Origin: Nonomuraea montanisoli
GTDB taxonomy: Bacteria; Actinomycetota; Actinomycetes; Streptosporangiales; Streptosporangiaceae
DNA length: 64,000 bases
Direction of reading: 5' to 3'
Assembly: GCF_013363975.1 (NCBI RefSeq)
Contig: NZ_JABWGN010000020.1
Location: 62,001 to 126,000 of the forward strand
The translations under genes were made by a program, and so were the position numbers. The notes under the pieces were generated by a model. That model worked only from the letters and a program-made list of their open reading frames with translations. It ran no database searches and was not told the DNA's origin. Of the stretch, positions 13,829 to 64,000 are shown one piece after another. How positions within the stretch are numbered: the stretch's first letter is position 1; each line of letters opens with the position of its first letter.

Positions 13829-13853
13829 TGAAACTATCCGGCGGGTCCGGACA
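13829..13853 (+). promoter_or_regulatory. ECF-type promoter of sigma pair A
   Basis: TGAAAC (13829-13834), 13 nt, CGGACA (13848-13853). The same arrangement lies upstream of every ECF sigma gene in this window, which suggests autoregulation. Transcription would start near 13861, giving a short leader. Confidence 0.6.
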
Positions 13854-13892
13854 GGTACGGGATGTCGGACCCACCGGATGAGAGAAGGCAGC

Positions 13893-14447
13893 GTGACCCA
13901 CCATGACCGCAAGGAGCGCTTCGAGGTGATCTACGTTGCCAACTACGCCGACATCCTCGCCTACATCCGGCGGCGTACCGACTCCCACGAGGACGCCGCC
14001 GACGCCCTCGCGGAGACGTTCACCACGGCCTGGCGCCGCCTGGACGACGTCCCCGAGGGGCGGGACGCGCGCCTGTGGCTGTTCGGCGTGGCCCGCCGCG
14101 TGCTGGCCAACGGCCGCCGCGCCGACTCGCGCCGCGGCGAGCTGGTGGAGCGGCTCGGTCAGCAGCTCGCCGTGTGGGCGGAGCACGCGGAGGCCGGCGG
14201 CGGCCTGGCGGGCGTCCAGGAGGCGTTCGCGCGGCTGAGCCCCGACGACCGGGAGATCCTCGCGCTGGCCGGCTGGGAGGGGCTGGGCTCCGACGAGATC
14301 GCCACCGTCCTCGGCTGCTCGCGCGCCAACACCCGGCTGCGGCTGCACCGGGCCCGCAAACGCCTGGCCAAGCACCTGGACACGGCCGGCGTCGACATGG
14401 CCCGCATCGGCCTGCGCGCCGTCGCTATGACGAAGGGGGCCATGTGA
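13893..14447 (+). CDS. ECF RNA polymerase sigma factor (pair A)
   Basis: A 184-residue sigma factor with region 2 (YADILAYIRRRTDSHEDAADALAETFTTAWRRLDDV) and region 4 (LSPDDREILALAGWEGLGSDEIATVLGCSRANTRLRLHRARKRL). Only these two regions are present, as in group 4 sigmas. GTG 13893 has AGAAGG 6 nt upstream; ATG 13878 is an alternative. It ends with TGATG, sharing one base with the start of its membrane partner. It is a close relative of the sigma factors at 53569, 58576 and 63217. Its own upstream region carries the shared TGAAAC-N13-CGGACA motif, so it is probably autoregulated. Confidence 0.93.
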   Translation: MTHHDRKERFEVIYVANYADILAYIRRRTDSHEDAADALAETFTTAWRRLDDVPEGRDARLWLFGVARRVLANGRRADSRRGELVERLGQQLAVWAEHAEAGGGLAGVQEAFARLSPDDREILALAGWEGLGSDEIATVLGCSRANTRLRLHRARKRLAKHLDTAGVDMARIGLRAVAMTKGAM

Positions 14448-15283
14448 TGCACGACATCGACCGCCTGGTGGCCGGCATCGCGCCCGATCCCGGCCCCGGC
14501 AGGACGCCGATCGCCCGGGAACTGCTGGAGGAGATCACCTCCGTCCCCGTCCCCGAGCGCCGCCGCCGCAGTTGGCTCGCCGTTCCCCGCCCGCGCAGGT
14601 GGGCGGCCGTGCCGGTCCTGGCCACGCTGGCGGCCCTGCTGTCCTTCGGCATCGCCCAGGCGCCCGCCTCCGCCGCGCTCGACATCGAACTGGTCGACGA
14701 CCACTACGTGATCACGGTGAAGGACCTGCTGGCCGAGCCCGAGGTGTACCAGCGCGAGCTCAGGGCCAGGGGCCTGGACATCACGCTCGACGTGGTGCCG
14801 ACCTCCGCGAGCCTGACGGGCCAGCTCATCGTGATCAACGACATGGACCGGTTGAGAGCCGGCAAGCTGGTGCCCCGGGAAGGTCCGATCACCACGATCG
14901 ACGCCCCGGGGCCGTGCGAGCGGTTCGCCGGCTGCCCCATCGGCGTGAAGGTGCCGGTCGACTTCGCCAAGAAGGCCGAGATCACGCTCGGCAGGCGCGC
15001 CCTGCCGGGCGAGAGGTACAAGATGCCGCCCGGCATCGCCATACCCGGCGAGCCTCTGCACTGCGTGGATCACGTCAACAAGAGCGTCGCCGAGGTCTCG
15101 GCCCTGCTGCGCGCGCGGGGCGTCACACCGTCGTACATCCAGGCCGGCAAGGCCGCGGCCCCCTCGGCGCCCGGCGGCTGGTACGTGCACGACGGCGTCA
15201 TGACCGCCGACGGCCAGGCCCTCCTGCTGGTCGGCGCCGAGCCCACCGCCCAGCCCGGCCCGGCGCCGGACGCCCGCTGCTGA
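14447..15283 (+). CDS. Membrane partner of ECF sigma A, putative anti-sigma or sensor
   Basis: A 278-residue protein with a basic cytoplasmic N-terminus (about 1-50, starting MHDIDRLVAGIAP), one membrane helix (about 52-72) and an extracytoplasmic domain of about 200 residues. That domain begins ALDIELVDDHYVITVKDL and contains LRARGLDITLDVVP, GCPIGVKVP, EITLGRRALPGERY and LHC. Two Cys pairs could form disulfides. The partner at 59151 follows the same order closely. It lacks the zinc-binding HxxxCxxC helix of common anti-sigma factors, so the contact with sigma would be different. A role as anti-sigma or signal receptor is inferred from the overlapping genes. Confidence 0.85.
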   Translation: MHDIDRLVAGIAPDPGPGRTPIARELLEEITSVPVPERRRRSWLAVPRPRRWAAVPVLATLAALLSFGIAQAPASAALDIELVDDHYVITVKDLLAEPEVYQRELRARGLDITLDVVPTSASLTGQLIVINDMDRLRAGKLVPREGPITTIDAPGPCERFAGCPIGVKVPVDFAKKAEITLGRRALPGERYKMPPGIAIPGEPLHCVDHVNKSVAEVSALLRARGVTPSYIQAGKAAAPSAPGGWYVHDGVMTADGQALLLVGAEPTAQPGPAPDARC

Positions 15284-19118: not shown

Positions 19119-19129
19119 CGTCGAAGACT

Positions 19130-19175
19130 ATCATCCATCCGGATGGTTGACAGAATCATCCGTATGGTTGATAGT
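19130..19175 (+). promoter_or_regulatory. Twin TetR operators over a consensus leaderless promoter
   Basis: Box 1 (19130-19149) is ATCATCC-atccgg-ATGGTTG-like and box 2 (19154-19172) is AATCATCC-gt-ATGGTTGAT. Both share ATCATCC and ATGGTTG half-sites. TTGACA (19147-19152), 17 nt, GATAGT (19170-19175) forms a near-consensus promoter covered by the boxes. Transcription would begin about at ATG 19183, so the mRNA is leaderless. Confidence 0.75.
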
Positions 19176-19182
19176 CGTTCCC

Positions 19183-20433: not shown

Positions 20434-20504
20434 GGTCTCCCCGGCCCGCGGGCGGCGGGGAGAATGGGGACCCGACGACGGAAACCGCCTGGGTGGAGGA
20501 CTGG

Positions 20505-23500
20505 ATGCGGATCGGGATCCTGGGGCCGCTCCACGTGGCGGGGGCCGCGGTCAAGGGCGCCCGGGTGCGGGCGCTGCTGGCGCGGCTGGCGCTGGACCCC
20601 GGCCGCGTGGTGACGGCCGACCGGCTGATCGGCGACCTGTGGCCGGAGGAGGCGCCGGAGCACCCGACGGCGGCGTTGCAGTCGCTGGTGTCCCGGGCGC
20701 GGCGCGAGGCGCCGGGGATCGTGGTCTCGCATCCCGCCGGGTACGCGCTCGACGTGCCTGCCGCCGAGGTGGACGCGTGGGAGTTCGAGCGGCTCGTACG
20801 AGCGGGCGAGGCGCGGGCGGCGCTGCGGCTGTGGCGGGGGGCGGCGCTGGCGGACGTGGCGGCGATGCCGTTCGCGGCCGGAGCGGCGGCGCGGCTGGAG
20901 GAGCTGCGGCTGACGGCCCTGGCGACGCGCATCGCCACCGACCTGGCACGGCACGACGACGCGGCGGGCGAGGGTGGTGGAGTCGAGGAGGCGGTGGCCG
21001 AGCTGCGGGCGCTGGTGGCCGAGCATCCGCTGCGGGAGCCGTTCCACGCCCTGCTCGTACGGGCGCTGGTGACGGCCGGGCGGCGGGGTGAGGCGCTGGA
21101 GGCGTTCGAGCGGGCACGGGCCTGCCTCGCCGACGAGCTGGGCGCCGATCCCGGGCCCGCGCTGCGCGAGGCGCACCTGGCGGCACTGCGCGAGGAGCCC
21201 GCCGCCACCCGCACCACCCCGCGGAGGCCCGCCCCGGCCCGCACCACTCCAGAGAGGCCCGCCCCGGCCCGCGCCCCGCAGGAAGCGCACGCTGAGGAGT
21301 CGCGGGGCGGGCGGATGCCGGCTCGCATGACGAGCTTCGTGGGCAGGTCGCACGACCTCTCCCGGCTCCGCGCCCTGCTCACGGCCCCGACGCCCGGCGA
21401 CGGCGCGCGGCTCGTGACGCTCGTGGGCCCCGGCGGGGCGGGCAAGACGCGGCTGGCCGTCGAGACCGCCGACGCGCTCGACGGCGCGGTGTGGCTGGTC
21501 GAGCTGGCCGCCGCCGGAGGGGTGCGCGCCGCGGTGGAGGGCGCGCTGCGCACCACCGACGCCGTGGCGGCGCTGCGCGGCACCCCGCGGCCGGTGCTCG
21601 TGCTCGACAACTGCGAGCACCTGGTCGAGGAGGCCGCCCGGGTGGCGCATTCGCTGCTCGGCGCGGTACCCGAGCTGAGGATCCTGGCCACCAGCCGGGA
21701 GCCGCTGGACATCCCCGGCGAGACGCTCCACCGGGTGCTCCCGCTGGAGGAGGCGGCGGCCGTGGAGCTGTTCCGCGACCGCGCCGCCGCGGCGCGGCCC
21801 GACGCGCGGGTCGAGCCCGGCGACGCGGCCTGGATCTGCCGCGAGCTCGACGGCGTGCCGCTGGCCATCGAGCTGGCCGCGGCCCGGCTGCGGACCATGC
21901 CCGTCGCCCGGCTCCTGCGCGGGCTCGGCGACCGGCTCGCCTTCCGCGGCGGCAGGACCGCCGAGCCGCGGCACCGCACGCTGCGCGCGGTCATCGACTG
22001 GAGCTGGGAGCTGCTGTCGGACGCGGAGCGGGAGCTGCTGCGCGCGTTCACGGTGTTCGCGGGCGGCGCGAGCGCGGACGCGGTCGCACAGGTCTGCGGG
22101 CCCCGAGTCGAGTCACAGGGCAGGGGGGACGGCGAGACGTCCGGCACCGCGAGCGAGGTCGGCGAAGACGACGTGCTCGACGTGCTGGACGTGCTGGCTT
22201 CGCTGGTGGACAAGTCGCTCATCGGCCTGTCCGGCGACCGCTACACGATGCTGGAGACCATCAGGCAGTACGCCGCCGCCGACCTGCCCGACGTGCGCCG
22301 CGCCCACGCGCGGTACTACACGCTGCTGGCCGAGGAGGCCGGTCCCGGGCTGCGGACCGGCGGGCAGCTCCACTGGCTGGCCCTGCTGGACGCCGAGCAG
22401 GGCAACCTCGACGCCGCCCTCGAACGCACCGATGACCCGCTCCGGCTCTTCCTGGCCCGGCTGTGGCCGTGGAGCATCCGGGGACGGCGCGTGGAGGCGG
22501 CCGAGCGGGCGGCGGAGGTGCTGCGGCGGGTGGGCGGCACACCGCCGGAGGGCCGGGAGCTGGCCCACGGGCTCTGCCGGCTGATCACGGGTGACCGGCC
22601 GGACGACGCCGTCCGCCTCTCGGACCATCCGGCGGCGGTGGCCTCGTTCGCGCTGATGCCGGTCCCGCCGTCCGACGTCGTGGAGATCGCCGAGGCGGCC
22701 GCCGAACGGCTGCGCGACCATCCCGACCCGTGGACCAGGGCCGCGGCGCAGCTCATGCGCGGGCTCACGCGGTTCGAGTTCGGCGCGGCGGCCGAGGCCG
22801 GCGAGCCGCTGCGGGCGGCGCTGGCCGGGTTCCGGGAGACCGGCGACCGGTGGGGGCTGTCGTACGCGCTGCACTGGCTGTCGCTGGACGCCGAGAACGA
22901 GGGCGACGACGCGCGGGCCATCGCCCTGGCCATGGAGGGCGCGCGGCTGGCCGGTGAGATCGCCGGGCTGGAGGCGCCCGAGGGGCCGATCCTCTTCCTC
23001 GCCCGGCTGGGCCGTCTCCAGGCCCGTACGGGTGACGTCGCCGGCGCCGCCGCCACCCTGGCCGGAGCCGAGGAGGCCGCGGCCCGCGCCGACGGCGATC
23101 CCCTGGCGGTGGCGCGGGTGCTGCACGCGCGGGCGGAGCTGGCCCGCCGGTCGGGCGATCCGGAGGAGGCCGCCCGGCTGCTGCATCGTGCCCTGGCGCT
23201 GCTGGACGGCGCGCCCCCGCAGTTCGAGGCTCTGGTGAACGTCGAGCTCGCCCGCGTGTCGGCCGACCCCTGGCCGCCGCTGCGCCGCGCCCTGGAGCTC
23301 ATGGACGCCTCGCCGGACCGCACGGTCCGCGCGACCGTGCTGGAGGGCGCGGCCGAGCACTGCGGCCCGCCGCTGGCCGCCGAGCTGGCCGGGGCGGCGC
23401 GGGCGCTGCGCGGCGGGGCCGTGACCGGGGACGCCGCGCTGCTCGCCCGCTGCCGTGACGCCCTGGGCGAGGACGCCCTTCAACGGGCGCTGGCCAGGGG

Positions 23501-23555
23501 CGCCGCGATCCCCCACCCCGAGAGGTACGCGCTGAGCCCGCTCTCGTCGCCGTGA
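20505..23555 (+). CDS. AfsR/SARP-type regulator with BTAD and NB-ARC domains
   Basis: A 1016-residue regulator. An OmpR-like DNA-binding domain (RIGILGPLHV...RVVTADRLIGDLWPEEAPEHP) and a bacterial transcriptional activation domain span about 1-240. After a Pro/Arg linker comes an NTPase domain with Walker A GPGGAGKT near 308-315, Walker B VLVLDNCEH, and the winged-helix region RHRTLRAVIDWSWELLSDAERELLRAF. Helical TPR-like repeats fill the rest. These proteins activate secondary-metabolite genes on an ATP-dependent switch. ATG 20505 has GTGGAGGA 4-5 nt upstream. The 3' end overlaps the convergent monooxygenase gene by 76 bp. Confidence 0.92.
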   Translation: MRIGILGPLHVAGAAVKGARVRALLARLALDPGRVVTADRLIGDLWPEEAPEHPTAALQSLVSRARREAPGIVVSHPAGYALDVPAAEVDAWEFERLVRAGEARAALRLWRGAALADVAAMPFAAGAAARLEELRLTALATRIATDLARHDDAAGEGGGVEEAVAELRALVAEHPLREPFHALLVRALVTAGRRGEALEAFERARACLADELGADPGPALREAHLAALREEPAATRTTPRRPAPARTTPERPAPARAPQEAHAEESRGGRMPARMTSFVGRSHDLSRLRALLTAPTPGDGARLVTLVGPGGAGKTRLAVETADALDGAVWLVELAAAGGVRAAVEGALRTTDAVAALRGTPRPVLVLDNCEHLVEEAARVAHSLLGAVPELRILATSREPLDIPGETLHRVLPLEEAAAVELFRDRAAAARPDARVEPGDAAWICRELDGVPLAIELAAARLRTMPVARLLRGLGDRLAFRGGRTAEPRHRTLRAVIDWSWELLSDAERELLRAFTVFAGGASADAVAQVCGPRVESQGRGDGETSGTASEVGEDDVLDVLDVLASLVDKSLIGLSGDRYTMLETIRQYAAADLPDVRRAHARYYTLLAEEAGPGLRTGGQLHWLALLDAEQGNLDAALERTDDPLRLFLARLWPWSIRGRRVEAAERAAEVLRRVGGTPPEGRELAHGLCRLITGDRPDDAVRLSDHPAAVASFALMPVPPSDVVEIAEAAAERLRDHPDPWTRAAAQLMRGLTRFEFGAAAEAGEPLRAALAGFRETGDRWGLSYALHWLSLDAENEGDDARAIALAMEGARLAGEIAGLEAPEGPILFLARLGRLQARTGDVAGAAATLAGAEEAAARADGDPLAVARVLHARAELARRSGDPEEAARLLHRALALLDGAPPQFEALVNVELARVSADPWPPLRRALELMDASPDRTVRATVLEGAAEHCGPPLAAELAGAARALRGGAVTGDAALLARCRDALGEDALQRALARGAAIPHPERYALSPLSSP

Positions 23556-37078: not shown

Positions 37079-37103
37079 GGACACTAACGTCCGATAAGCG
37101 GAC
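37079..37103 (+). promoter_or_regulatory. Inverted repeats upstream of hmgA, candidate IclR operator
   Basis: GTCCGATAAGCGGAC (37089-37103) is a perfect GTCCG/CGGAC inverted repeat, overlapping GGACACTAACGTCC (37079-37092), another GGAC/GTCC repeat. They lie 20-45 bp before hmgA. TTGACA at 37037-37042 could be the -35 box of the operon promoter, but no clear -10 box follows. Confidence 0.55.
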
Positions 37104-37123
37104 ACCAGCTCTGGGGAGGGCGG

Positions 37124-38323
37124 ATGCCGTACTACCGCGTCGTGGGCGAGATCCCCCGCAAGCGCCACGTGCAGTTCAGAAGGCCCGACGGCGGTCTTTA
37201 CGCCGAGGAGCTGATGGGCGAGGAGGGCTTCTCCTCCGACTCCTCGCTGCTCTACCACCGCCACCTGCCTACGGCCATCGTCAAGGCGGAGGCTGTCGCC
37301 CAGACCACCGGCGCCCAGACCACCGGCGCCCAGACGGGCGGCGCCCGCCTGGAGCCCAACCTGCCGCTCTCCCCGCGGCACTTCCGCACCCAGGAGCTCG
37401 GCAGCGCCGGCGACCTGGTCACCGGCCGGATCGTGCTGGCCGGCAACGGCGACGTCCGGTTGTCGTACGCCACCAGCGACCAGCCGAGCGAGCTGTACCG
37501 CAACTCGATGGGCGACGAGTGCGTGTACGTCCAGCGCGGCCGGGTCCGGTTCGAGTCCACGTACGGCGCCATCGACGCCCGCGAGGGCGACTACGTGGTC
37601 GTGCCCACCGGCACGATCCACCGCTGGGTGCCCGAGGGCCAGGTCAACGTGCTGGCCATCGAGGCCGCCGGGCACATCAGGCCGCCCAGGCGCTACCTGT
37701 CGCAGTACGGCCAGTTCCTGGAGCACGCCCCCTACTGCGAGCGCGACCTGCGCGCCCCGGCCGAGCCGCTGCTCGCCGAGGGCGAGGAGGTGCCGGTGCT
37801 GGTGCGCACCCGGGGCGGGCTGACCCGGCTGTTCTACCGCAACCACCCGTTCGACGTGGTGGGCTGGGACGGCTGCCTCTACCCGTACGCCTTCAACATC
37901 GAGGACTTCGAGCCGGTCGTGAAGAAGACGCACGCGCCGCCGCCGGTCCACCAGACGTTCGAGGGGCCGGGGTTCGTGGTCTGCTCGTTCTGCCCGCGCC
38001 CGCTGGACTTCCACCCCGAGTCGGTGCCGATCCCGTACAACCACCACAACGTCGACTCCGACGAGTTCATGTTCTACGTCGGCGGCGACTACTCCGCGCG
38101 CAGGGGCTCCGGCATCGACGTCGGCTCGGTGTCGCTGCACCCGGCCGGGTTCACCCACGGGCCGCAGCCCGGCGCGGTCGAGGCGGTCATCGACGCGGTC
38201 TCCCGCGGTGTCACGACCACCAGCGAGATGGCCGTCATGGTCGACACCTTCCGCCCGCTCGACCTCGGGCCGGGCGCGCTGGCCTGCGAGGACACCGACT
38301 ACGCCTGGACGTGGGCGCGATGA
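37124..38323 (+). CDS. hmgA: Homogentisate 1,2-dioxygenase
   Basis: HmgA opens the homogentisate ring with O2 to give maleylacetoacetate. The 399-residue cupin-type protein keeps the iron ligands His308, Glu314 and His345 (NHHNVDSDEF...GFTHGP) and the active-site His276 (HQTFEG). The N-terminal domain is typical of the bacterial short form. Residues 59-75 hold a small tandem repeat (QTTGAQTTGAQTGGA) not usual for the family. ATG 37124 has GGGGAGGGCGG upstream. It overlaps the next gene by ATGA, so the operon is translationally coupled. Confidence 0.95.
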   Translation: MPYYRVVGEIPRKRHVQFRRPDGGLYAEELMGEEGFSSDSSLLYHRHLPTAIVKAEAVAQTTGAQTTGAQTGGARLEPNLPLSPRHFRTQELGSAGDLVTGRIVLAGNGDVRLSYATSDQPSELYRNSMGDECVYVQRGRVRFESTYGAIDAREGDYVVVPTGTIHRWVPEGQVNVLAIEAAGHIRPPRRYLSQYGQFLEHAPYCERDLRAPAEPLLAEGEEVPVLVRTRGGLTRLFYRNHPFDVVGWDGCLYPYAFNIEDFEPVVKKTHAPPPVHQTFEGPGFVVCSFCPRPLDFHPESVPIPYNHHNVDSDEFMFYVGGDYSARRGSGIDVGSVSLHPAGFTHGPQPGAVEAVIDAVSRGVTTTSEMAVMVDTFRPLDLGPGALACEDTDYAWTWAR

Positions 38324-43186: not shown

Positions 43187-43789
43187 TCAGTGCGCCAGCG
43201 GGGGCTCCGTGGTGTCCACCAGGGTGCAGTCGGCCACGGCGCCCTCGGCCACCCGGGCCCAGACGGCCGCCACCACCGCCGGTCCGTCCGGGGCCTCGAA
43301 GACGCTGAACTCCAGCACGCCCGTCTGGCCGTCCTTGATGACGCGGGGGTCGACGACGAAGCCCGGCTGGTGGTCCTTCCCGGTGGGGAGGACCACGAGC
43401 GGGGCCTCCTCGGGCGACAGGAAGCGCTCGGCGCGCGGCTGCGGGCCGCACTTCTTGCCCTGCGGGATGTAGTCCACCACCACGTGCATCCCCTTGGCCC
43501 GCAGGTCGGCCTCCAGCTTGTCGGCGTCCCGGACCTCGTTGATCTGGATGCGGACGGTGCCGTCCGGGTTGTCGGTGACGGCGTACGCCGGGCTGCCGCC
43601 GCCCACGAACAGCGGGACCGCCACGGCCGCCGCGGCGGCGAGCCCGAGCACGGGCGCCAGGACGGCGGGACGCAGCAGGCGGCGGCGCGGAAGGGTCTTC
43701 CCGGCCTTGCGGTCGATCTCGGTCATCACGAACTCCTTGAGCAGCCGGTGACGGCCCTCGGGAAGATCGCGCTCGTCGTGCCAGCTCAT
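43187..43789 (-). CDS. Membrane partner of ECF sigma B
   Basis: A 200-residue protein with a basic cytoplasmic N-terminus (KTLPRRRLLR), one membrane helix (about 42-60) and a small extracytoplasmic domain. That domain has the same opening as the other partners: VTDNPDGTVRIQINEVRDADKLEADLRAKGMHVVVDYIP, matching the YVI-x-I-x-D...LRxxGLDVTLDVIP pattern. The later part differs and is shorter. It has no zinc-binding anti-sigma motif. Its ATG overlaps the sigma stop codon (ATGA). Function as anti-sigma or sensor is inferred. Confidence 0.8.
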   Translation of the reverse strand: MSWHDERDLPEGRHRLLKEFVMTEIDRKAGKTLPRRRLLRPAVLAPVLGLAAAAAVAVPLFVGGGSPAYAVTDNPDGTVRIQINEVRDADKLEADLRAKGMHVVVDYIPQGKKCGPQPRAERFLSPEEAPLVVLPTGKDHQPGFVVDPRVIKDGQTGVLEFSVFEAPDGPAVVAAVWARVAEGAVADCTLVDTTEPPLAH

Positions 43790-44373
43790 CGGATCTCCTC
43801 CTTCACGGGGCCTCGGTCACCTTCTACCTGTCGGGGCGCGGGCGGCGGTTCCACGAACTTCCCGAGTTTCCGCCGCGCCCTCGACAACCGCGACCGCACG
43901 GTGCCCACCGGGATGCCCAGCGCCTCACCCGCCTCCGCGTAGTCGAGCCCCGCCCACACGCACAGCGCGAACACGTCGCGTTCCTGGCGGCGGAGCCCGC
44001 CGAACGCCGCGCGCACGGCGGCGAGCCGCTCGGCGTCGTCGATCCGGCCCACCACCTCGTCGGCGAAGTCCGGCACCGGCTCGCCCCTGGGCAGCCGGGC
44101 CAGCGCGTCGTCGTGGCGGCGCGAGGCCCGGCGGGTGTTGCGGGCCACGTTGGTGGCGATCCCGAGCAGCCACGGCCGCAGCGAGCCGCCCTCGGGGTCC
44201 ACCCGGGCGCGTAACCGCCACGCCTCCAGGAACGTCAGCGCCATCACGTCCTCGGCCGCCGACCAGTCGCCGGTCAGGCGGTAGGCGTGGTTGTAGACGG
44301 CCTTCGAGCACTCGTCGAAGAGCTGCTCGAAGGCCGCCGGGTCTCCGGTGCGTAATCCGGCACGTAGCGACAT
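43786..44373 (-). CDS. ECF RNA polymerase sigma factor (pair B)
   Basis: The 195-residue sigma factor has region 2 (FEQLFDECSKAVYNHAYRLTGDWSAAEDVMALTFLEAWRLRARV) and region 4 (LRRQERDVFALCVWAGLDYAEAGEALGIPVGTVRSRLSRARRKL). It is more distant from the other four sigma factors in the window, and has a longer region 2-4 linker. ATG 44373 is preceded by the shared ECF-type promoter; a second ATG two codons earlier is also possible. The gene is translationally coupled to its partner. Confidence 0.93.
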   Translation of the reverse strand: MSLRAGLRTGDPAAFEQLFDECSKAVYNHAYRLTGDWSAAEDVMALTFLEAWRLRARVDPEGGSLRPWLLGIATNVARNTRRASRRHDDALARLPRGEPVPDFADEVVGRIDDAERLAAVRAAFGGLRRQERDVFALCVWAGLDYAEAGEALGIPVGTVRSRLSRARRKLGKFVEPPPAPRQVEGDRGPVKEEIR

Positions 44374-44388
44374 GTCCACATACAGGAC

Positions 44389-44413
44389 TGTCCGCGGCGG
44401 GAGAGGAGTTCCC
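44389..44413 (-). promoter_or_regulatory. ECF-type promoter of sigma pair B
   Basis: On the minus strand GGGAAC (44413-44408), 13 nt, CGGACA (44394-44389). The -10 and spacer match the other ECF pairs; the -35 is closer to the classic GGAAC. Confidence 0.6.
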
Positions 44414-53537: not shown

Positions 53538-53563
53538 TGAAATTCCGTGCCCGCCCGCGGACA
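53538..53563 (+). promoter_or_regulatory. ECF-type promoter of sigma pair C
   Basis: TGAAAT (53538-53543), 14 nt, CGGACA (53558-53563). The spacer is one longer than in the other pairs. Transcription would start at about the GTG at 53569, a leaderless arrangement. Confidence 0.55.
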
Positions 53564-53568
53564 CGTAC

Positions 53569-54150
53569 GTGATCGAGACCAACCAGCAGCACACCGACGA
53601 GGACGAAGTGGACGAAACCGATGAGCAGTCCCGGTTCGAGGCCGTGTACCGGCGCACGTACGAGCAGATCCTCGGCTACGTCATGCGGCGCTGCTCCTCT
53701 CCCGAGGATGCCGCCGACATCGTGGCCGAGACGTACGTGATCGCCTGGCGGCGCGTGAGCGAGCTCCCGCAGGGCGACACCGCCAAGCTGTGGCTCTACG
53801 GGGTGGCCCGGCGCGTCCTGGCCAACCACCGCCGCGGCGAGCGGCGCAGGGAGACGGGGCACGCTGAGCTGACCGCCGAGACCCGGCGCCGCTACGCCAT
53901 GGCCGCCCCCAGCAGGTACGACCACGTGGACCAGGCCATGAACGCGATCTCCGACGACGACCGCGAGCTGCTGGCCCTGTCCGTCTGGGAGGAGCTGGAC
54001 CCCGGCCAGATCGCCGCGGTGCTCGGCTGCTCGCGCAACGCCGTCCGCATCCGGCTGCACCGCGCCCGCAAGCGTTTCGCCCGGGCTCTGAAGGATGCCC
54101 GCCCGGCGGCCTTCCACCCGCGACCACTGACCAACGAGGAGTCACGATGA
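53569..54150 (+). CDS. ECF RNA polymerase sigma factor (pair C)
   Basis: A 193-residue sigma factor with an acidic N-terminal extension (HTDEDEVDETDEQ), region 2 (FEAVYRRTYEQILGYVMRRCSSPEDAADIVAETYVIAWRRVSEL) and region 4 (ISDDDRELLALSVWEELDPGQIAAVLGCSRNAVRIRLHRARKRF). It is a close relative of pairs A, D and E. The stop overlaps the partner start (ATGA). The upstream motif suggests autoregulation. Confidence 0.93.
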   Translation: MIETNQQHTDEDEVDETDEQSRFEAVYRRTYEQILGYVMRRCSSPEDAADIVAETYVIAWRRVSELPQGDTAKLWLYGVARRVLANHRRGERRRETGHAELTAETRRRYAMAAPSRYDHVDQAMNAISDDDRELLALSVWEELDPGQIAAVLGCSRNAVRIRLHRARKRFARALKDARPAAFHPRPLTNEESR

Positions 54151-55016
54151 GCAAGGACCAGGTGTTCAGGGAACGGGCCAGAGTGCTGGACACGGACCTG
54201 TCCGGCAGCGCGACCACCGCGGGGGCGGACGCGCTGCTGACCGAGATCTTTCAGGTGGAGCGGACCCCGGCCCCGGTGGTCCGGCGGACCCGCCGCGTGC
54301 CGGCTCCGAGCCGCCTCCTGCTGGGCCTGGCGGCCTCGGTCGTCCTGGCCGGCGCCTTCGTCGTCGGGCCGTCCCTGTTCAAGGAGTCGGGACAGGTGTA
54401 CGCGAGCCAGGCCGTCACGATCGACCGCGACGGCGACGAGTACGTCTTCTACATCACCGACGGCGATCCCGACCCGGCCGAGCTGCAGAAGGCCTTCCAG
54501 AAGGTCGGCCTGGACAACGTGAAGGTGGAGCTGATTCCCGTGTCGCCGCGGCAGCGAGAGCCCGTCGTCGGCTGGGAGGCCTCGGATCCGGGCAGCCGGA
54601 TGAGCTCCACCACGTCCGACTGCAAGGTGCGGGTCGAGGGGTGCCTGACGGCCTTCAACGTCACGGCCGACCTCAAGGGACCGGCGAAGCTGCAGTTGGG
54701 CCGGCCGGCCAAGCCCGGTGAGAAGTACGCCTACCCCATCGACGCGACCGTGTCGGGCGAGGCCATGGCCGGGACCACGATCGGGGGACTCACGGTGGCC
54801 GAGGCGGTGCGCGTCGTGCGCGAGCACGACCTGAAGGTGACCTACCAGCTCCGCTGGCCGCTGCACGAGGGAGTCGGTTATCGGGCGGAGGAGCAGGTCC
54901 CGGCCTCCCGGGTCGATCCGGGCTGGAAGGTGGCGGAGGCGGAGAGCTACAACGACGGGGCGATCGTCCTGAGCGTCGAGCCCGGCCCGGGCGCCACCCC
55001 GCCGCCCGGCTACTGA
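54147..55016 (+). CDS. Membrane partner of ECF sigma C
   Basis: A 289-residue protein with a cytoplasmic N-terminus of about 50 residues, one membrane helix (about 54-72) and an extracytoplasmic domain starting ASQAVTIDRDGDEYVFYITDG. It shares the framework of the other partners: FQKVGLDNVKVELIPVSP, CKVRVEGCLTAFNVTADLKGPAKLQLGRPAKPGEKY and LTVAEAVRVVREHDLKVTYQLRW. The last 60 residues differ and contain a SPGATPPPGY tail. No zinc anti-sigma helix is present. The role is inferred from coupling to the sigma gene. Confidence 0.85.
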   Translation: MSKDQVFRERARVLDTDLSGSATTAGADALLTEIFQVERTPAPVVRRTRRVPAPSRLLLGLAASVVLAGAFVVGPSLFKESGQVYASQAVTIDRDGDEYVFYITDGDPDPAELQKAFQKVGLDNVKVELIPVSPRQREPVVGWEASDPGSRMSSTTSDCKVRVEGCLTAFNVTADLKGPAKLQLGRPAKPGEKYAYPIDATVSGEAMAGTTIGGLTVAEAVRVVREHDLKVTYQLRWPLHEGVGYRAEEQVPASRVDPGWKVAEAESYNDGAIVLSVEPGPGATPPPGY

Positions 55017-55147: not shown

Positions 55148-58100
55148 TCACCCGATGGCGTACGCCCGGGTGATGGTCTGCGTCACCTGGTCACCCGCCG
55201 CGTCCGTGACCTTGGCGCGCAGCGAGACGAACCCGGGCGCGGCCGGGTTCGCGACCCTGGCCGTCCATCCGGAGCCGGAGCGGACCAGCCGGACCGGCCG
55301 CCAGCTCGCCCCGTCGTCGAAGGACGTCTCCACCGTGATCGACGTAGCACGCGCCGCGGGGGCGCCGGGGTTGCGCTGGAGGCTGACCGGGATCACGGTC
55401 GTGGACCCCGGCTTGGCGCGGTTGTGGTCGTCGAGGCCCTCGGGGAGGTAGCGGACCGCGGTGAGGGGCAGCGGCCGGGCCTTGTCCGTCCGCTCCGACC
55501 GGAACGTCCAGGCCGCCTCGACCTTCGTGGACAGGGCCGACGGCCGCTGCGCCGACGCGGTCAGCGTGTAGGTCGCCGCCTCGGCGGGCAGCCGGGCCTT
55601 CAGCAGGCACTTCTCGGGCTCCATGGGCACGCAGCCCGCCAGGTCCGCCTCGGCCAGCGCCTCGGCGCCGCGGGTCAGAGCGAGTTTCCCGGTGGTGGTG
55701 GAGTCACCGCCGTTCAGTCCTGCCCTCCCGGCGGTGAGAAGGCCGTCGGCGGTGAAGCGCAGCCGGTCGCCGTCGCGGTCGCCGGCCGGCGTGCCGAACG
55801 CGGGACCGGTCACGGCGTCGTTCCACACCTCGGCGACCGGCCGCCGCCCGAGCACCTCACTGTGACCGGCCACCGTGTGGGTGCCGGTCTCGATCTGCGT
55901 GGTCCAGGCGAAGCCGGGAGTGCGGTAGTGCGTCATGGTCGCCGGCAGGTCCGTCTCGGGGCTGCTGGAGATCCACACATCCGTCCAGGGGGCGCCAGGG
56001 AACTGCGGCCCCACCGACGTCCTGGCCTTGGCGGCGCCGCCCGGTGCACGGTAGGCCGCGCTCACCTTGACCAGCTCGCGGGTCCGCGCCCTGTAGGTGG
56101 GGTCGTCCGGGATCCCGCCGACCTCGTAGTCGACGAGGTCGTAGCGGTACGGGCTCGGCTTGGCGTCCTTCTTGTGCCAAACGGTGGTGGACATGTATCG
56201 CAGGCCGGGCTGACGTACGGGGAACACGTAGTAGCCCCGGCTCTGGCCGAAGGAGATCCAGGCCGTGTTCCAGGCCCCGTTGGCCAGCGTGAAGGCGATG
56301 AGACGGTCGCGCTCGGCCGTCGGCTCGTCCACCGTGAACTCGACCTTCTTGGCCTCACGCACGTCGAACGTCAGTTCACGGTCCGCGCTGTCGATGGTCA
56401 CGGATCGGTGCCCGAAGGCGGCGTAACCACCCCAGAGGTCGACGTAGAGATTCCACTCACCCTTCGGCAGCCGGACCGTGGCCTTGCCCTGACCATCGAA
56501 GGCCAGCAGACGCCGGTCGCCGGTCTTGTCGTAGGCCTCACCCGAGACGCGGACGTCGGGCGGGTTGCCCTCCGGGTCGACGGTCTTGACGGTGAGGTTG
56601 TAGGACTCCGGCTCGACATAGGCGCCGGCCAGGGTGCGGATGACGGTGTCGCCGGACCGGGCGGTCACGACGCCGGGATAGTCGCCGGGCGCCCTGCCCT
56701 CCCCCCGGATCGTGAGCTTGACCGACGCCTCTCCCTTCGCGGGCACCACCAGGCTCTGGGCTCCGAGCTCCAGCACCTCGCTGTCCTCGCCGAGGTCCAG
56801 CGTGACCGGGGTGTCACCGGCGTTGGCGTACGTGATGTCCTTGGTCACCACCCGCTCACCGGTGCCGTCCCAGGGGAAGGCGGCCCAGACGTTCGGCGTC
56901 GCCGCCGTCACCTGCTGGGCCAGCGTGCGGACCAGGTCGACCCGCCCGGCTCCCTCCTGGTACGGCGTGGCGCCCTCCTGGGGCGCGGCGCTGCCGATGA
57001 GCGCCGCCTTCAGGCGCTGACCACTCCAGTCCGGGTGCCGCTGGGCGAGGATCGCGGCGGCTCCCGCCACGTGCGGGGCGGCCATCGACGTGCCGCTGTG
57101 GGCGACGTACGGGCCGTCGGCCGTGCCCGCGGCGGCCGCGGCCGTGATCTCGACACCGGGAGCGGTGAGATCCGGCTTGATGGCATGGTCACCGCTGCGA
57201 GGGCCCGCGCTGGAGAAGGGCGCCATCCGGTCGTCCCGGTCGACGGCGCCGACGGTGAGGGCGGCGTCGGCGCTGCCGGGGCTGTTCACCGTGCCGGGCA
57301 ACCCGTCGTTACCGGCGGCGATGACGAACAGCACGCCGGTCCGCTCCGACAGCGTGGCGACCGCCTGCTCCAGGGGGTCGAGCTCCGGCGTGTCCGGCGC
57401 GCCGATGCTGAGGTTGACCACCTTGGCCTTCACCTCAAGGGCGGCCCACTCCATGCCCGCCAGGATGGCCGAATCGGCCGGACCGCGGACGCCGCCCACC
57501 TTGCCGAGCGCGATCTTCGCATCCGGCGCCACTCCCCGGTACTTCTCCCCCGCGCCCGCGACGATCGACGCCACGTGTGTTCCGTGGCCGAGGTTGTCAC
57601 GGATGTCAGGCTCCTCGCTGAAGTTCCGCGACTGCGTGACCACGTCCTTCAGATCCGGATGGTCCGGGTCATAGCCGGAGTCCAGGACGGCCACCGTGAC
57701 GCCCTTGCCGGTGAAGCCCTGCTTCCACGCCTCCGTCGCGCCGATCTGCTTGACGCTCCGGTCGAGGGTGAAGGGACGCCGCCCGTCCAGCCACAGTTTC
57801 GTCCGCCCCGCGGACAGGGTCCGGGCGCCGGACGCCAGGCTCTTCCACGTCTCGGCCGCGTTCGCCTTGGGCACCTGCACCGCGGCCATGCCGAGGGCGG
57901 ACATACGCCGGGTCTGACGGGCGCTCCGGAGCGCGGGCACGTCCCCCTGGGCCGACTGCGTGATCAGCGGGATGTCGCCCCGCTGCGCGTCGCCGTACTC
58001 CCATTCCAGAAGCTGCGTGACGTCGAACAGCCGCTCGTCCAGGACGCCCTGGGCCACCAGCGGACGGGCGTCGGACGGGTAGACGTACAGGTGTCCGTCG

Positions 58101-58399
58101 CGGCGCTGGCTGGCGTAGGACGCCTGTCTGCCCGGTCCCGGCTCCACCCGGTGCCCGGCGGCGGTGACGACGACCTTGTCGCCGGTGATCAGCGTCACCG
58201 TGCCGGTCCGCTCGTTCACCGGCCGATCGGCCGCAGCGGCGGCGGGCGTCGGGGACGTCGCAGGTGTTGCGGGCGTCGCGGCGATGGACGTCGCGGGCGT
58301 CGGGGACGTCGCGGGCGTCGCGGCGGCGGGCGCCTGGGCGGCCGTGACACCGGCCGATCCGGCCAGAACGGCGGCCACCAGGCCCTTGCCTAACCTCAT
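55148..58399 (-). CDS. Secreted subtilisin-like serine protease (S8), multidomain
   Basis: A 1083-residue protease. The signal peptide (RLGKGLVAAVLAGSAGVTAAQA) is followed by a repetitive Ala/Thr/Pro segment (TPATSPTPATS, ATPATPATSPTP), a propeptide-like region and the catalytic domain. The triad is Asp240 (AVLDSGYDPDHPDL), His272 (GHGTH) and Ser438 (GTSMAAPH), with oxyanion Asn364. A long C-terminal part (from about 500) holds beta-sandwich modules. ATG 58399 has GAGAGGAAG upstream. The gene is divergent from ECF pair D and has an ECF-type promoter of its own, so it is likely controlled by one of the window's sigma factors. Confidence 0.93.
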   Translation of the reverse strand: MRLGKGLVAAVLAGSAGVTAAQAPAAATPATSPTPATSIAATPATPATSPTPAAAAADRPVNERTGTVTLITGDKVVVTAAGHRVEPGPGRQASYASQRRDGHLYVYPSDARPLVAQGVLDERLFDVTQLLEWEYGDAQRGDIPLITQSAQGDVPALRSARQTRRMSALGMAAVQVPKANAAETWKSLASGARTLSAGRTKLWLDGRRPFTLDRSVKQIGATEAWKQGFTGKGVTVAVLDSGYDPDHPDLKDVVTQSRNFSEEPDIRDNLGHGTHVASIVAGAGEKYRGVAPDAKIALGKVGGVRGPADSAILAGMEWAALEVKAKVVNLSIGAPDTPELDPLEQAVATLSERTGVLFVIAAGNDGLPGTVNSPGSADAALTVGAVDRDDRMAPFSSAGPRSGDHAIKPDLTAPGVEITAAAAAGTADGPYVAHSGTSMAAPHVAGAAAILAQRHPDWSGQRLKAALIGSAAPQEGATPYQEGAGRVDLVRTLAQQVTAATPNVWAAFPWDGTGERVVTKDITYANAGDTPVTLDLGEDSEVLELGAQSLVVPAKGEASVKLTIRGEGRAPGDYPGVVTARSGDTVIRTLAGAYVEPESYNLTVKTVDPEGNPPDVRVSGEAYDKTGDRRLLAFDGQGKATVRLPKGEWNLYVDLWGGYAAFGHRSVTIDSADRELTFDVREAKKVEFTVDEPTAERDRLIAFTLANGAWNTAWISFGQSRGYYVFPVRQPGLRYMSTTVWHKKDAKPSPYRYDLVDYEVGGIPDDPTYRARTRELVKVSAAYRAPGGAAKARTSVGPQFPGAPWTDVWISSSPETDLPATMTHYRTPGFAWTTQIETGTHTVAGHSEVLGRRPVAEVWNDAVTGPAFGTPAGDRDGDRLRFTADGLLTAGRAGLNGGDSTTTGKLALTRGAEALAEADLAGCVPMEPEKCLLKARLPAEAATYTLTASAQRPSALSTKVEAAWTFRSERTDKARPLPLTAVRYLPEGLDDHNRAKPGSTTVIPVSLQRNPGAPAARATSITVETSFDDGASWRPVRLVRSGSGWTARVANPAAPGFVSLRAKVTDAAGDQVTQTITRAYAIG

Positions 58400-58478: not shown

Positions 58479-58503
58479 TGTCCGGATACGGGGAGCTGTT
58501 ACA
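58479..58503 (-). promoter_or_regulatory. ECF-type promoter of the subtilase gene
   Basis: On the minus strand TGTAAC (58503-58498), 13 nt, CGGACA (58484-58479), 80 bp before ATG 58399. It matches the motif of the sigma genes and differs from them only in the -35 box. Confidence 0.58.
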
Positions 58504-58539
58504 GGAGCTGCCGTGAAGGCAGAGACGATGTGCTTCCTG

Positions 58540-58564
58540 TGAAACAGAGCCGCCGAGCCGGACA
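58540..58564 (+). promoter_or_regulatory. ECF-type promoter of sigma pair D
   Basis: TGAAAC (58540-58545), 13 nt, CGGACA (58559-58564), ending 12 bp before GTG 58576. It is identical in both boxes to the promoter of pair A. Together with 58479-58503 it forms a divergent pair. Confidence 0.62.
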
Positions 58565-58575
58565 TCTGCTGTGAT

Positions 58576-59154
58576 GTGTCCAAACAACGGAAAGAAGGCG
58601 ACATCGGGCCTCCTGCGCCGGAGCAACGCTTCGAGCGGCTCTACCTGGCGCACTATCCCGCCATCGCCGCCTACGTCACGCGACGTACCGAGTCCACGGA
58701 CGACATCGCCGACGTGATCGCCGAGACGTTCACGACCGCCTGGCGCCGGCTGGACGACGTCCCCCAGGGGGACGAGGCCCGGCTGTGGCTGTACGCGGTC
58801 GCCCGGCGTGTCCTCGCCAACCACTTTCGCGCCGAGGAGCGCCGCTCGGCGCTGGCCGCGCGGCTGCGCGAGGAGCTGGCCACCTGGTCCCGGCCCGCGG
58901 CGGACCGGGACGGCGACGCCACCTACCAGGCGTTCCGGCGCCTGTCACCCGACGACCGGGAGCTGCTCACCCTCGTCGGCTGGGAAGGACTGAGCAGCGC
59001 CGAGATCGCCAAGGTGCTGGGCTGCTCGCGCGGAGCCGCGCGCCTGCGCCTGCACCGCGCCCGCAAGCGGCTGGCCAAGGAACTGGCCGCCGCCGACCTC
59101 GACCTCACCACTTACGGCCTGCGCGCCGTCGCACTCGCGGAAGGAAGATCGTGA
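58576..59154 (+). CDS. ECF RNA polymerase sigma factor (pair D)
   Basis: A 192-residue sigma factor with region 2 (RLYLAHYPAIAAYVTRRTESTDDIADVIAETFTTAWRRLDDV) and region 4 (LSPDDRELLTLVGWEGLSSAEIAKVLGCSRGAARLRLHRARKRL). It is very like pairs A and E. GTG 58576 is 12 bp from the -10 box with no clear ribosome site, so translation starts on a near-leaderless message. The stop overlaps the partner's GTG (GTGA). Confidence 0.93.
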   Translation: MSKQRKEGDIGPPAPEQRFERLYLAHYPAIAAYVTRRTESTDDIADVIAETFTTAWRRLDDVPQGDEARLWLYAVARRVLANHFRAEERRSALAARLREELATWSRPAADRDGDATYQAFRRLSPDDRELLTLVGWEGLSSAEIAKVLGCSRGAARLRLHRARKRLAKELAAADLDLTTYGLRAVALAEGRS

Positions 59155-60023
59155 ACGACGTGGACCGCGTCATCGCCCACCTGTCCCCCGGCGCCGGGCC
59201 CGGCATGACCGAGGGAGCCCACGCGCTGATGCGCGACATCATGGCCGCCGAGCCCACCACCGCCAGGGCCGCCGCACCGGCCGGGCGGCGCGGGCGCCGG
59301 TCACTGGTCCTGCGCGCCGCGGTGCCGGGCGTGGCGCTGCTGGCCGCCGCGTTCATCGGGCTGAGCTGGATGCTGCCCGCCGGGCTCGGCCTCGGTCCGG
59401 GGACGGCCGCGGCGCTCGACATCAAGAAGGAGGACGGCTACTACGTCATCGAGATCAAGGACCTGTACGCCGACTCCGCCACCTACGAGGCGCAGCTCCG
59501 TGACGCCGGCCTGGACGTGACCCTCGACGTCATCCCCTCGACCCCGTCCTGGGTGGGCTCCATCTTCCCCACCTCGCCCACCGAGAACCGGTATCTCGAC
59601 GAGATCAAGACCATCGACCAGCCGGGGGGCTGCGACAAGATGGGCGGCTGCCCGCTCGGGGTGAAGATCCCGGAGAACTTCCAGGGGCCCGCCGAGATCA
59701 CGATCGGGCGCGAGGCCAAGCCCGGTGAGCCATTCGAGAACGGCACCACGATCGACGGTCTGGGCGAGCCGCTGCACTGCATGCCCTACGTCGGCCGCAC
59801 CGTGGCCGAGGTGCGCGGCATGCTGCAGGAGCGCGGCGTGACCATCCAGAACTTCACGGACATGGACCCGGAGACCGGAGGGACGAAGGAGTCGGTGCCG
59901 GACTCGTGGCTGGTGGAGAGCGGCAGCATGACGGAGCCGGGCAAGGCGACCCTGGACGTGTACGAGGGATCCGCGCCGCAGGAGCCGGGGGGCCGCCGCG
60001 GCGAGAACTGCCCGACCTCCTAG
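59151..60023 (+). CDS. Membrane partner of ECF sigma D
   Basis: A 290-residue protein with a cytoplasmic N-terminus (MNDVDRVIAHLSPGAGP...LMRDIMAAEP), one membrane helix (about 54-76) and an extracytoplasmic domain beginning AALDIKKEDGYYVIEIKDLYAD. Further shared blocks are LRDAGLDVTLDVIPSTPS, CDKMGGCPLGVKIPENFQGPAEITIGREAKPGEPF and GLGEPLHCMPYVGRTVAEVRGMLQERGV. It is the closest relative of the pair A partner (same block order, about half the residues identical by eye in these blocks). No zinc site. Its likely role is to hold or release the sigma factor in response to an outside signal. Confidence 0.87.
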   Translation: MNDVDRVIAHLSPGAGPGMTEGAHALMRDIMAAEPTTARAAAPAGRRGRRSLVLRAAVPGVALLAAAFIGLSWMLPAGLGLGPGTAAALDIKKEDGYYVIEIKDLYADSATYEAQLRDAGLDVTLDVIPSTPSWVGSIFPTSPTENRYLDEIKTIDQPGGCDKMGGCPLGVKIPENFQGPAEITIGREAKPGEPFENGTTIDGLGEPLHCMPYVGRTVAEVRGMLQERGVTIQNFTDMDPETGGTKESVPDSWLVESGSMTEPGKATLDVYEGSAPQEPGGRRGENCPTS

Positions 60024-63180: not shown

Positions 63181-63205
63181 TGTCACACATGACCCGGTAC
63201 GGACA
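63181..63205 (+). promoter_or_regulatory. ECF-type promoter of sigma pair E
   Basis: TGTCAC (63181-63186), 13 nt, CGGACA (63200-63205), 12 bp before GTG 63217, the same distance as in pair D. Confidence 0.58.
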
Positions 63206-63216
63206 CTGACCATCAC

Positions 63217-63798
63217 GTGACACTCCCGAACCGGAAGGACGACGACGTGGGACCACCCGAGCCCCGCCGCCGTTTCGAGCAGATCTACACGGAGCACTAC
63301 GCGGCCGTCGCCGCCTACGTGCGGCGGCGCGCCGACTCGCCGGACGACATCGCGGACCTGCTGTCGGAGACCTTCACCACCGCCTGGAGGCGGCTCGGCG
63401 AGGTGCCGGCCGGCGACCGTGCCCTGTTCTGGCTGTACGGCGTGGCCCGGCGCACCCTCGCCAACCACCGCCGCGGCGAGACCCGCAGGACGGCGCTGAC
63501 CCGGCGGCTGGGCGAGGAGCTGGCCACCTGGGCCGGGTCCCCGGCGGACCGGGCGCCCCGGGCGGCGCGCGCGGCTTTCCTGCGCCTGTCGGACGACGAC
63601 AGGGAACTGCTGGCGCTGGCCGGCTGGGAGGGCCTGGGCAGCGCCGAGATCGCCAAGGTGCTGGGCTGCTCCCGCATCGCGGCCCGCCAGCGCCTGCACC
63701 GCGCACGCAAACGGCTCGCCGCCGAGCTGGCCGCCGCCGACGAGGACCTCACCGAATACGGCCCGCGGGCCGTCCGTCTCGCCAAGGAGAGCGCGTGA
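63217..63798 (+). CDS. ECF RNA polymerase sigma factor (pair E)
   Basis: A 193-residue sigma factor with region 2 (QIYTEHYAAVAAYVRRRADSPDDIADLLSETFTTAWRRLGEV) and region 4 (LSDDDRELLALAGWEGLGSAEIAKVLGCSRIAARQRLHRARKRL). It is very close to pairs A and D. GTG 63217 is preferred by its distance from the promoter; GTG 63247 would shorten it by 10 residues. It overlaps its partner gene by GTGA. Confidence 0.93.
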   Translation: MTLPNRKDDDVGPPEPRRRFEQIYTEHYAAVAAYVRRRADSPDDIADLLSETFTTAWRRLGEVPAGDRALFWLYGVARRTLANHRRGETRRTALTRRLGEELATWAGSPADRAPRAARAAFLRLSDDDRELLALAGWEGLGSAEIAKVLGCSRIAARQRLHRARKRLAAELAAADEDLTEYGPRAVRLAKESA

Positions 63799-64000
63799 CC
63801 ACCCACCTGGACGACGTCGTCGAGCGGCTGGCGCCCGCCCCCGTGCCCGCGGCGCCGCTCACTCCGCTCGCGCGGGACCTGATGAACGAGATCATGGACG
63901 CCGCCCCGGAGCCGGCCGCCCAGCCTCGGCGGAGGTGGCGCCCGCTCGTCGCGCTGCCGGTGGCCGCGGCCGTCGCGGCGGCGGCCTGGATCATCCCGTC
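63795..64000 (+). CDS. Membrane partner of ECF sigma E (partial)
   Basis: The first 68 residues are inside the window. They read MTTHLDDVVERLAPAP...LMNEIMDAAPEP with the basic PRRRWR and the start of a membrane helix (ALPVAAAVAAAAWI). This N-terminus matches that of pairs A and D ([IV]DRx-x-A-x-L-x-P and LM-x-[DE]IM). The rest is beyond the edge. Confidence 0.85.
   Translation, partial: MTTHLDDVVERLAPAPVPAAPLTPLARDLMNEIMDAAPEPAAQPRRRWRPLVALPVAAAVAAAAWIIP

Follow-up and report, generated by a model that had tools for sequence, protein, structure and literature searches.

Five genes for ECF sigma factors lie within one 64-kb stretch of a Nonomuraea genome, and each of them, like a subtilase gene divergent from one of them, is preceded by two short boxes of which the second, CGGACA, is constant. 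The locus raises the question whether these sigma factors read one another's promoters or mainly their own. From the sequence analysis it appears very probable that the sites are the promoters of an expanded ECF subfamily, which would form mostly separate self-loops with a helix-read -35 hexamer, and that E4 would also act on the subtilase.

ECF sigma factor genes of the window

The window, which is the whole analysed stretch of 64,000 nucleotides, corresponds to positions 62001-126000 of contig C12 in a genome of 9.76 Mb. The following genes are considered.

13878..14447, + strand: E1, ECF sigma factor, 189 aa (Pfam PF04542, PF08281; helix ..SRANTRLRLHRA..)
43786..44379, - strand: E2, divergent ECF sigma factor, 197 aa (Pfam, alignment; helix ..PVGTVRSRL..)
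53569..54150, + strand: E3, ECF sigma factor, 193 aa (Pfam, alignment; helix ..SRNAVRIRLHRA..)
58576..59154, + strand: E4, ECF sigma factor, 192 aa (Pfam, alignment; recognition helix with G153 and L157)
63217..63798, + strand: E5, ECF sigma factor, 193 aa (Pfam, alignment; helix ..SRIAARQRLHRA..)
55148..58399, - strand: subtilase (Peptidase_S8), probably exported (Pfam; likely start 58399)

E1-E5 matched PF04542 (Sigma70_r2) and PF08281 (Sigma70_r4_2) above cut-off, all five matched TIGR02937 above cut-off, and the Pfam scan gave no region-3 family match in these short proteins. With regions 2 and 4 and no region-3 domain, they are ECF (group 4) sigma factors. The domain content agrees with the original prediction of five ECF genes and a subtilase, as Sigma70_r2 and Sigma70_r4_2 are present in all five and Peptidase_S8 in the subtilase. 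The subtilase start at 58399 was picked by eye from a likely signal peptide and ribosome-binding site. In the alignment, E1, E3, E5 and E2 showed 59%, 47%, 67% and 34% identity to E4, respectively. The nearest named relatives of E4 are in Nonomuraea, namely N. rhodomycinica (97%) and N. roseoviolacea (95%). The genome possesses 44 ECF-like matches to E4, and 11 of these (E4, E5, E1, E3 and seven more) score above 100 bits; these 11 and their relatives are called the subfamily here. The window also contains a 1671-aa frame (18540-23555, + strand) that matches BTAD and, weakly in mid-protein, Trans_reg_C and AAA, and resembles a SARP-like regulator.

Six promoter-like sites

The predicted promoters are situated as follows.

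13829..13853, + strand: E1 promoter, TGAAAC-N13-CGGACA, 24 nt upstream of the E1 start, kept in E1 orthologues
44389..44413, - strand: E2 promoter, GGGAAC-N13-CGGACA, from sequence, kept in E2 orthologues
53538..53563, + strand: E3 promoter, TGAAAT-N14-CGGACA, from sequence, kept in E3 orthologues
58479..58503, - strand: subtilase promoter, TGTAAC-N13-CGGACA, 79 nt upstream of the likely start
58540..58564, + strand: E4 promoter, TGAAAC-N13-CGGACA, 11 nt upstream of the GTG start
63181..63205, + strand: E5 promoter, TGTCAC-N13-CGGACA, with the same -35 in E5-type loci

All six sites, with CGGACA 13-14 nt after the first box, were found exactly where they had been described, and the claim of a start codon within 80 nt holds with distances of 5 to 79 nt, the 79 nt resting on the chosen subtilase start. 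If the predicted E4 site is used, the E4 transcript would be nearly leaderless. CGGACA alone is common (51 occurrences in the window), so the weight of the evidence lies in the box pair and its spacing. The strict motif matched six times in the 64-kb window, each time before a gene, and the boxes in reversed order matched nowhere in it. A looser pattern, [TGC]G..A[CT]-N13/14-CGGACA, gave two extra matches, one intergenic (37079-37104) and one within a coding frame (59837-59862). The statement that no further intergenic copy exists is thus correct for the strict motif but not under the looser pattern, which recovers one weaker copy. This copy, GGACAC-N14-CGGACA on the + strand, is situated in a short intergenic region 19 nt upstream of an HgmA-like gene (37124-38323). 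Across the own genome, three exact copies of TGWAAC-N13-CGGACA and a single one of TGTCAC-N13-CGGACA were found, every one of them inside the window, and the backwards-pattern controls for the two motifs gave 0 and 0. A search with up to two mismatches was not useful (269 matches vs 184 in the backwards control).

The -10 box of E1 lies inside an imperfect inverted repeat (GTCCGGACA..TGTCGGACC, window 13845-13871), and a similar repeat was seen in the majority of 13 E1-type loci listed. It may serve as an operator or form a hairpin in the leader.

Conservation across the subfamily and the genus

The 154 subfamily loci gathered comprised the 11 own loci, 63 of 80 from named genomes (L046 to L109 minus L103; L110 to L125 were excluded as remote, 23 to 31% identical) and 80 Nonomuraea regions. 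The latter were picked among the matches listed by a search that scored part of its candidates, skipping apparent duplicates of the named genomes and leaving L039 to L045 unused. After duplicates and short frames were dropped, 149 loci were retained. A -35-like hexamer and an exact CGGACA separated by 12 to 15 nt were found in 104 of these 149 upstream regions, compared with a mean of 1.5 and a maximum of 4 in 20 rounds of dinucleotide shuffling under the same rule; with a lenient site rule the figures were 131 vs 27. Among other ECF genes of the genome, the site was absent from 18 of 19 (of 33 further matches), the nineteenth being E2 of the window. This subfamily therefore shows one of the features of an autoregulated ECF promoter, two boxes before the sigma gene that are conserved among relatives. 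The view that these are ECF-type promoters gains support from the retention of the boxes in relatives, from their near absence before other ECF genes of the genome and from the covariation of the -35 with the helix described below, and the best interpretation of the six sites is that they are autoregulatory promoters of ECF type.

The individual groups keep their own variants of the site. Among E2 loci, GGAAC with GGACA at N12 to N15 was present upstream in 29 of 30, own locus included, and the thirtieth (L282) shows GGAAT..CGGACA by eye. E3 relatives carry TGAAAT-N14 (L096 and L226) or GGAAAT-N14 (L099). Eight E5-type loci have the TGTCAC -35, at N13 in seven and at N14 in L088. Spacing depends on the branch (own loci L012, L018 and L019; others L192-L199): N14 or N15 is seen in branches with T153 or T157, and by eye L018 and L019 show N12 with CGGACC.

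In 53 Nonomuraea genomes, exact TGWAAC-N13-CGGACA occurred 72 times vs 14 for the backwards pattern, and exact TGTCAC-N13-CGGACA 27 times vs 5. Thirty of the 72 TGWAAC sites (two own) were examined: a subfamily ECF was the next gene in 17, 12 were without a subfamily ECF, and in L128 an E4-like promoter stands before a short N-terminal remnant. Among 20 examined of the 27 TGTCAC sites, an ECF was the downstream gene in four; in L155 and L165 an ECF is present with an over-extended start, and L160 holds an ECF remnant. L128, L160, L286, L287 and L288 represent promoter relics of E4 or E5 type, some of them decayed, which are followed by ECF remnants only. One identical 25-base site was found on three contigs (C5, C14, C23) of genome G019 and is therefore probably in a repeated element.

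Covariation of the -35 hexamer with the recognition helix

Residues 153 and 157 are given in E4 numbering. Site calling for the covariation analysis was blind to hexamer bases 3 and 4 and yielded 128 called sites, leaving 18 of 146 members without a call under the automatic rule. Among the 191 E4 columns, residue 157 showed the highest mutual information both for base 3 (0.86, next 0.63) and for base 4 (0.45, next 0.36). Bases 3-4 were TC in 11 of 11 sigma factors with Q157, AA in 47 of 49 with L and 36 of 41 with I, and TA in seven of nine with V. With T157, base 3 was C in 12 of 13 (CA 7, CC 5, TC 1), and the three rows with S gave GA, AA and CA once each. Similarly, N153 was accompanied by T at base 6 in 34 of 38 and non-N by C in 87 of 90, with four other columns outscoring residue 153 for this base. 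The pairs seen are thus L/I-AA, Q-TC, T-C(A/C) and N153-T6. L185, a sister of the E1 orthologues, has both N153 and T6. Exceptions are L066, L081 and L082 (TA with I or L at 157), L089 (TGAAAG), L214 (TGTCAC with T157), L221 (T153 with T6) and the one S157 row with AA. Some of the misses are wrong calls, as in L014, where TGAAAT-N13-CAGACA is present and another box was picked.

The changes were also mapped on a protein tree built without the helix (254 branches), with all branches weighted equally and a single parsimony mapping. Of the seven changes at residue 157, five coincided in branch with one of the 13 changes at bases 3-4 (p about 3e-6). For residue 153 and base 6, with four and seven changes, two branches were shared (p about 0.004), and one more pair missed by a single node. 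The crossed controls gave 1 and 0 common branches. An independent-pairs test, with too few pairs, gave no significance. As independent events are few, each residue class having 1 to 4 changes, the evidence for covariation is good, not overwhelming. A hexamer read from the helix, with a -10-like box, was found upstream in 120 of 146 members against 35.7 (maximum 44) with the classes shuffled, a figure which measures fit and not prediction as the classes were drawn beforehand from the same data; in 13 of 146 the helix-predicted hexamer was missing. For the -10 bases, the region-2 columns that covaried most were scattered and apparently lineage-bound. Terminal ACA was required in that -10 collection, so its constancy proves nothing.

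A comparable contact is described for C. glutamicum in PMC11588781, where molecular dynamics, multi-residue mutants and reporter assays place S171 of sigma-H on G-34 and V171 of sigma-D on T-34. In an alignment by eye, residue 171 is the counterpart of residue 157, and base -34 that of hexamer base 3. Position 157 is S and base 3 is G in E2, and L084 has S with TGGAAC. The predicted contact between residue 157 and base 3 agrees with the Corynebacterium work, to which the present data add a natural paralogue set.

The subtilase as a probable target of E4

E4-divergent subtilase genes with both promoters were found in the window and in L046, L047, L048 and L294; in L294, E4 and the subtilase are 72% and 74% identical and the subtilase site reads GGTAAC-N14-CGGACA. 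L286, L287 and L288, whose subtilases are 77 to 78% identical, have E4 remnants only and no forward site. The remnants were recognized by eye in L286 and L287 (promoter and first codons) and by a 64-residue match in L288. The subtilase site is thus present in five of five loci with an intact divergent E4 and in none of three with an E4 relic. This joint presence or loss indicates that the subtilase is probably a target of E4, which would drive it from TGTAAC-N13-CGGACA in addition to its own gene. Two points count against this: the hexamer TGTAAC differs from the TGAAAC expected for E4, and most of the other subtilase relatives inspected have no site.

The arrangement is confined to some loci. 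The E4-type loci L049 to L060 showed no divergent site and no subtilase relative in the flanking DNA examined, and of the 40 subtilase loci inspected only the own locus and L294 gave a forward match containing CGGACA. An ECF match within 1.5 to 3 kb upstream was found for 11 of 27 subtilase relatives at least 62% identical, one being the L288 remnant, and for none of 13 relatives below 60%. The ECFs near subtilase relatives represent several branches, and only some are of E4's subfamily. In L307, L308, L290, L297, L315 and L317, subtilase relatives stand beside other-branch ECFs (29 to 35% identical to E4), and such neighbours suggest a wider association of ECFs and subtilases. Among E5-type loci, a co-directional subtilase follows beyond the partner gene in L077, L079, L086 and L088, that is in four of the seven with downstream DNA; L072, L075 and L076 are without one, and L093 is cut. 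The order E5-type ECF, partner and co-directional subtilase was also seen in L296 and L314. The subtilase-like frames of L087 and L104 did not match the subtilase.

Among the matches listed for the own genome, no second subtilase relative was found on the contig of the window. A subtilase paralogue on contig C4 was considered as a trans target, having TGAAAC-N13-CGGCCA 38 nt upstream of a GTG; the two relatives L326 and L327 do not keep the -10, and the candidate was set aside as unproven. The genome has eight one-mismatch sites, one of which is the subtilase site, and of the five loci examined (L003, L004, L005, L007 and L008) only that of the C4 paralogue lies just before a correctly oriented gene, with genes called by a crude gene finder.

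Insulation or cross-reading of the promoters

A shared -10 is expected, since region 2 is shared, and is no sign of general cross-reading. The -35 differs in step with residues 153 and 157, which predicts insulation. The original prediction had taken the constant CGGACA to mean that at least some of the sigma factors read one another's promoters; this is for the most part not supported, as the -35 differs between E1/E4, E3, E5 and E2 and tracks the helix, but for E1 and E4 it is plausible. In the favoured explanation, each sigma factor would act on its own operon, consisting of the sigma gene and that of a membrane-anchored putative anti-sigma factor, through a -35 hexamer nGnnAy and a -10 CGGACA mostly 13 to 15 nt apart. 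Region 4.2 would read the -35, with residue 157 setting bases 3-4 and residue 153 base 6, and at the birth of a paralogue helix and promoter would have changed together to give mostly separate loops, those of E1 and E4 on TGAAAC, E3 on TGAAAT, E5 on TGTCAC and E2 on GGGAAC. We infer that the sites are bound and transcribed in this assignment. The covariation points to the same use of own promoters by E3 (TGAAAT, N153), E5 (TGTCAC, Q157) and E2 (GGGAAC, S157), which are predicted to be insulated. Most of the five sigma factors probably switch on themselves and not one another.

E1 and E4 cannot be separated by the helix code and could cross-read on their common TGAAAC. It is quite possible, at a little under an even chance, that insulation is general and E1 and E4 nevertheless form a cross-reading pair which also covers the subtilase; this would be a variant of the favoured explanation and does not exclude it. 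Their sites are the same, TGAAAC-N13-CGGACA, and their helices carry L at 157 together with G or A at 153, but their spacers differ between the groups and are alike inside each orthologue group, and helix residues 154-155 differ (AA versus NT).

As V at 157 goes with TA, the subtilase site might instead be read by a V157 sigma factor such as the paralogue L019. V occurs with TA in seven of nine called sites, and L019 has V and, by eye, CGTAAC-N12-CGGACC. We regard this as unlikely, given that the subtilase site has N13 and CGGACA as E4 does, and is missing from the loci in which only a relic of the adjacent E4 is left.

The original prediction taken to its full extent, one shared regulon in which all five sigma factors act on all six promoters and activation of one activates all, is improbable. 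CGGACA and the near-constant spacing in six of six sites, the identical -35 of E1 and E4, and the T at base 3 with some L/I-helix sigma factors (L066, L081, L082), which may mean tolerance, are consistent with it; however, bases 3, 4 and 6 covary with helix residues throughout the subfamily, and TGTCAC is kept in E5-type loci and GAAAT in E3 orthologues. That the sites are no promoters at all, being either leftovers from the duplication of ECF genes together with the DNA before them or sites bound by some other regulator, would suit the paralogy of E1, E3 and E5 to E4 (59, 47 and 67% identical) and the imperfect inverted repeat overlapping the E1 site, but is hardly credible when the boxes stayed constant as spacers and flanks changed, the -10 and spacing recur at E2, which comes from another ECF branch and whose orthologues retain them, the -35 tracks the sigma helix and the subtilase is no paralogue of the ECF genes.

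How duplicated regulators avoid mutual interference is an open evolutionary question, and this subfamily displays states of sigma factor and promoter side by side; in L185, compared with its closest kin, the E1 orthologues, a helix residue and a promoter base differ together. The proposed code gives cheap, concrete predictions for exchanges of single residues and of single bases, and the sigma-promoter pairs are candidates for use in orthogonal control in actinomycetes. A probable target, the subtilase, is also indicated for an uncharacterised sigma factor.

Partner proteins and a proposed circuit

Each ECF gene is followed by a partner gene.

14444..15283, + strand: E1 partner, single-TM, putative anti-sigma factor (4-nt overlap with E1; function inferred)
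43187..43789, - strand: E2 partner, weak CU044_5270-like protein (NF038083, 30.3 bits, cut-off 100)
54147..55016, + strand: E3 partner, single-TM, putative anti-sigma factor (function inferred)
59151..60023, + strand: E4 partner, putative anti-sigma factor (function inferred)
63795..64000, + strand: E5 partner, extending past the window end

A co-directional single-TM partner is conserved with these ECFs, and its anti-sigma role is putative. The E4 partner has a short N-terminus, one TM and an extracytoplasmic domain which ends weakly PASTA-like. A signal from outside the membrane may be sensed by this partner and lead to the release of E4, and the released E4 would then act on its own operon and on the subtilase from the two sites of the 58.5 kb divergent region. 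A farther-reaching joint reading combines about a dozen largely orthogonal paralogous sigma-promoter pairs in one genome, arisen as two helix residues and three -35 bases changed together step by step, with a closed circuit of E4, subtilase and anti-sigma factor. In this circuit the exported subtilase would target the extracytoplasmic, PASTA-like region of the adjacent anti-sigma factor, as a site-1-like protease controlled by the very sigma factor that it releases. The joint reading is speculative and we consider it doubtful.

Relation to known systems

A literature search in a limited collection returned no paper that deals with the motif or with these Nonomuraea sigma factors. The principle itself is already known: according to the review PMC8103513, Todor et al. 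2020 established a residue-to-base code between sigma2/sigma4 and autoregulated promoters. There the sigma factor transcribes its own gene, as is predicted here, and sigma2/sigma4 positions predict -10/-35 bases. The present case differs in lying within one expanded paralogue set, mainly of Streptosporangiales. In C. glutamicum, sigma-D (GTAAC) and sigma-H (GGAAT/C) meet -34 with the same helix position (V-T, S-G), but PMC11588781 gives spacers of 17 to 20, a -10 of GAT/GTT and two sigma factors with no large paralogue set.

For ECF54, the review PMC8999054 describes subtilase genes as recurrent in the genetic context. Likewise, a subtilase relative is found downstream of four of seven E5-type loci and divergent from three E4 loci; most E4 and E1 loci are without a subtilase. 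ECF54 is discussed in that review among ECFs without an anti-sigma factor, whereas the ECFs here have a conserved single-TM partner.

The E2 partner resembles the CU044_5270 family (NF038083) through a weak match over residues 10-75, but at 30.3 bits it stays below the cut-off of 100. NF038083 gave no match in the frames of the E1, E3 and E4 partners, those of E1 and E4 having begun upstream of the real start. MibX and PspX are ECF regulators of lantibiotic clusters in Streptosporangiales, which act with a membrane anti-sigma factor and apparently use another promoter motif. The present systems share with them the combination of an ECF and a membrane anti-sigma factor, putative in this case, within the same bacterial order.
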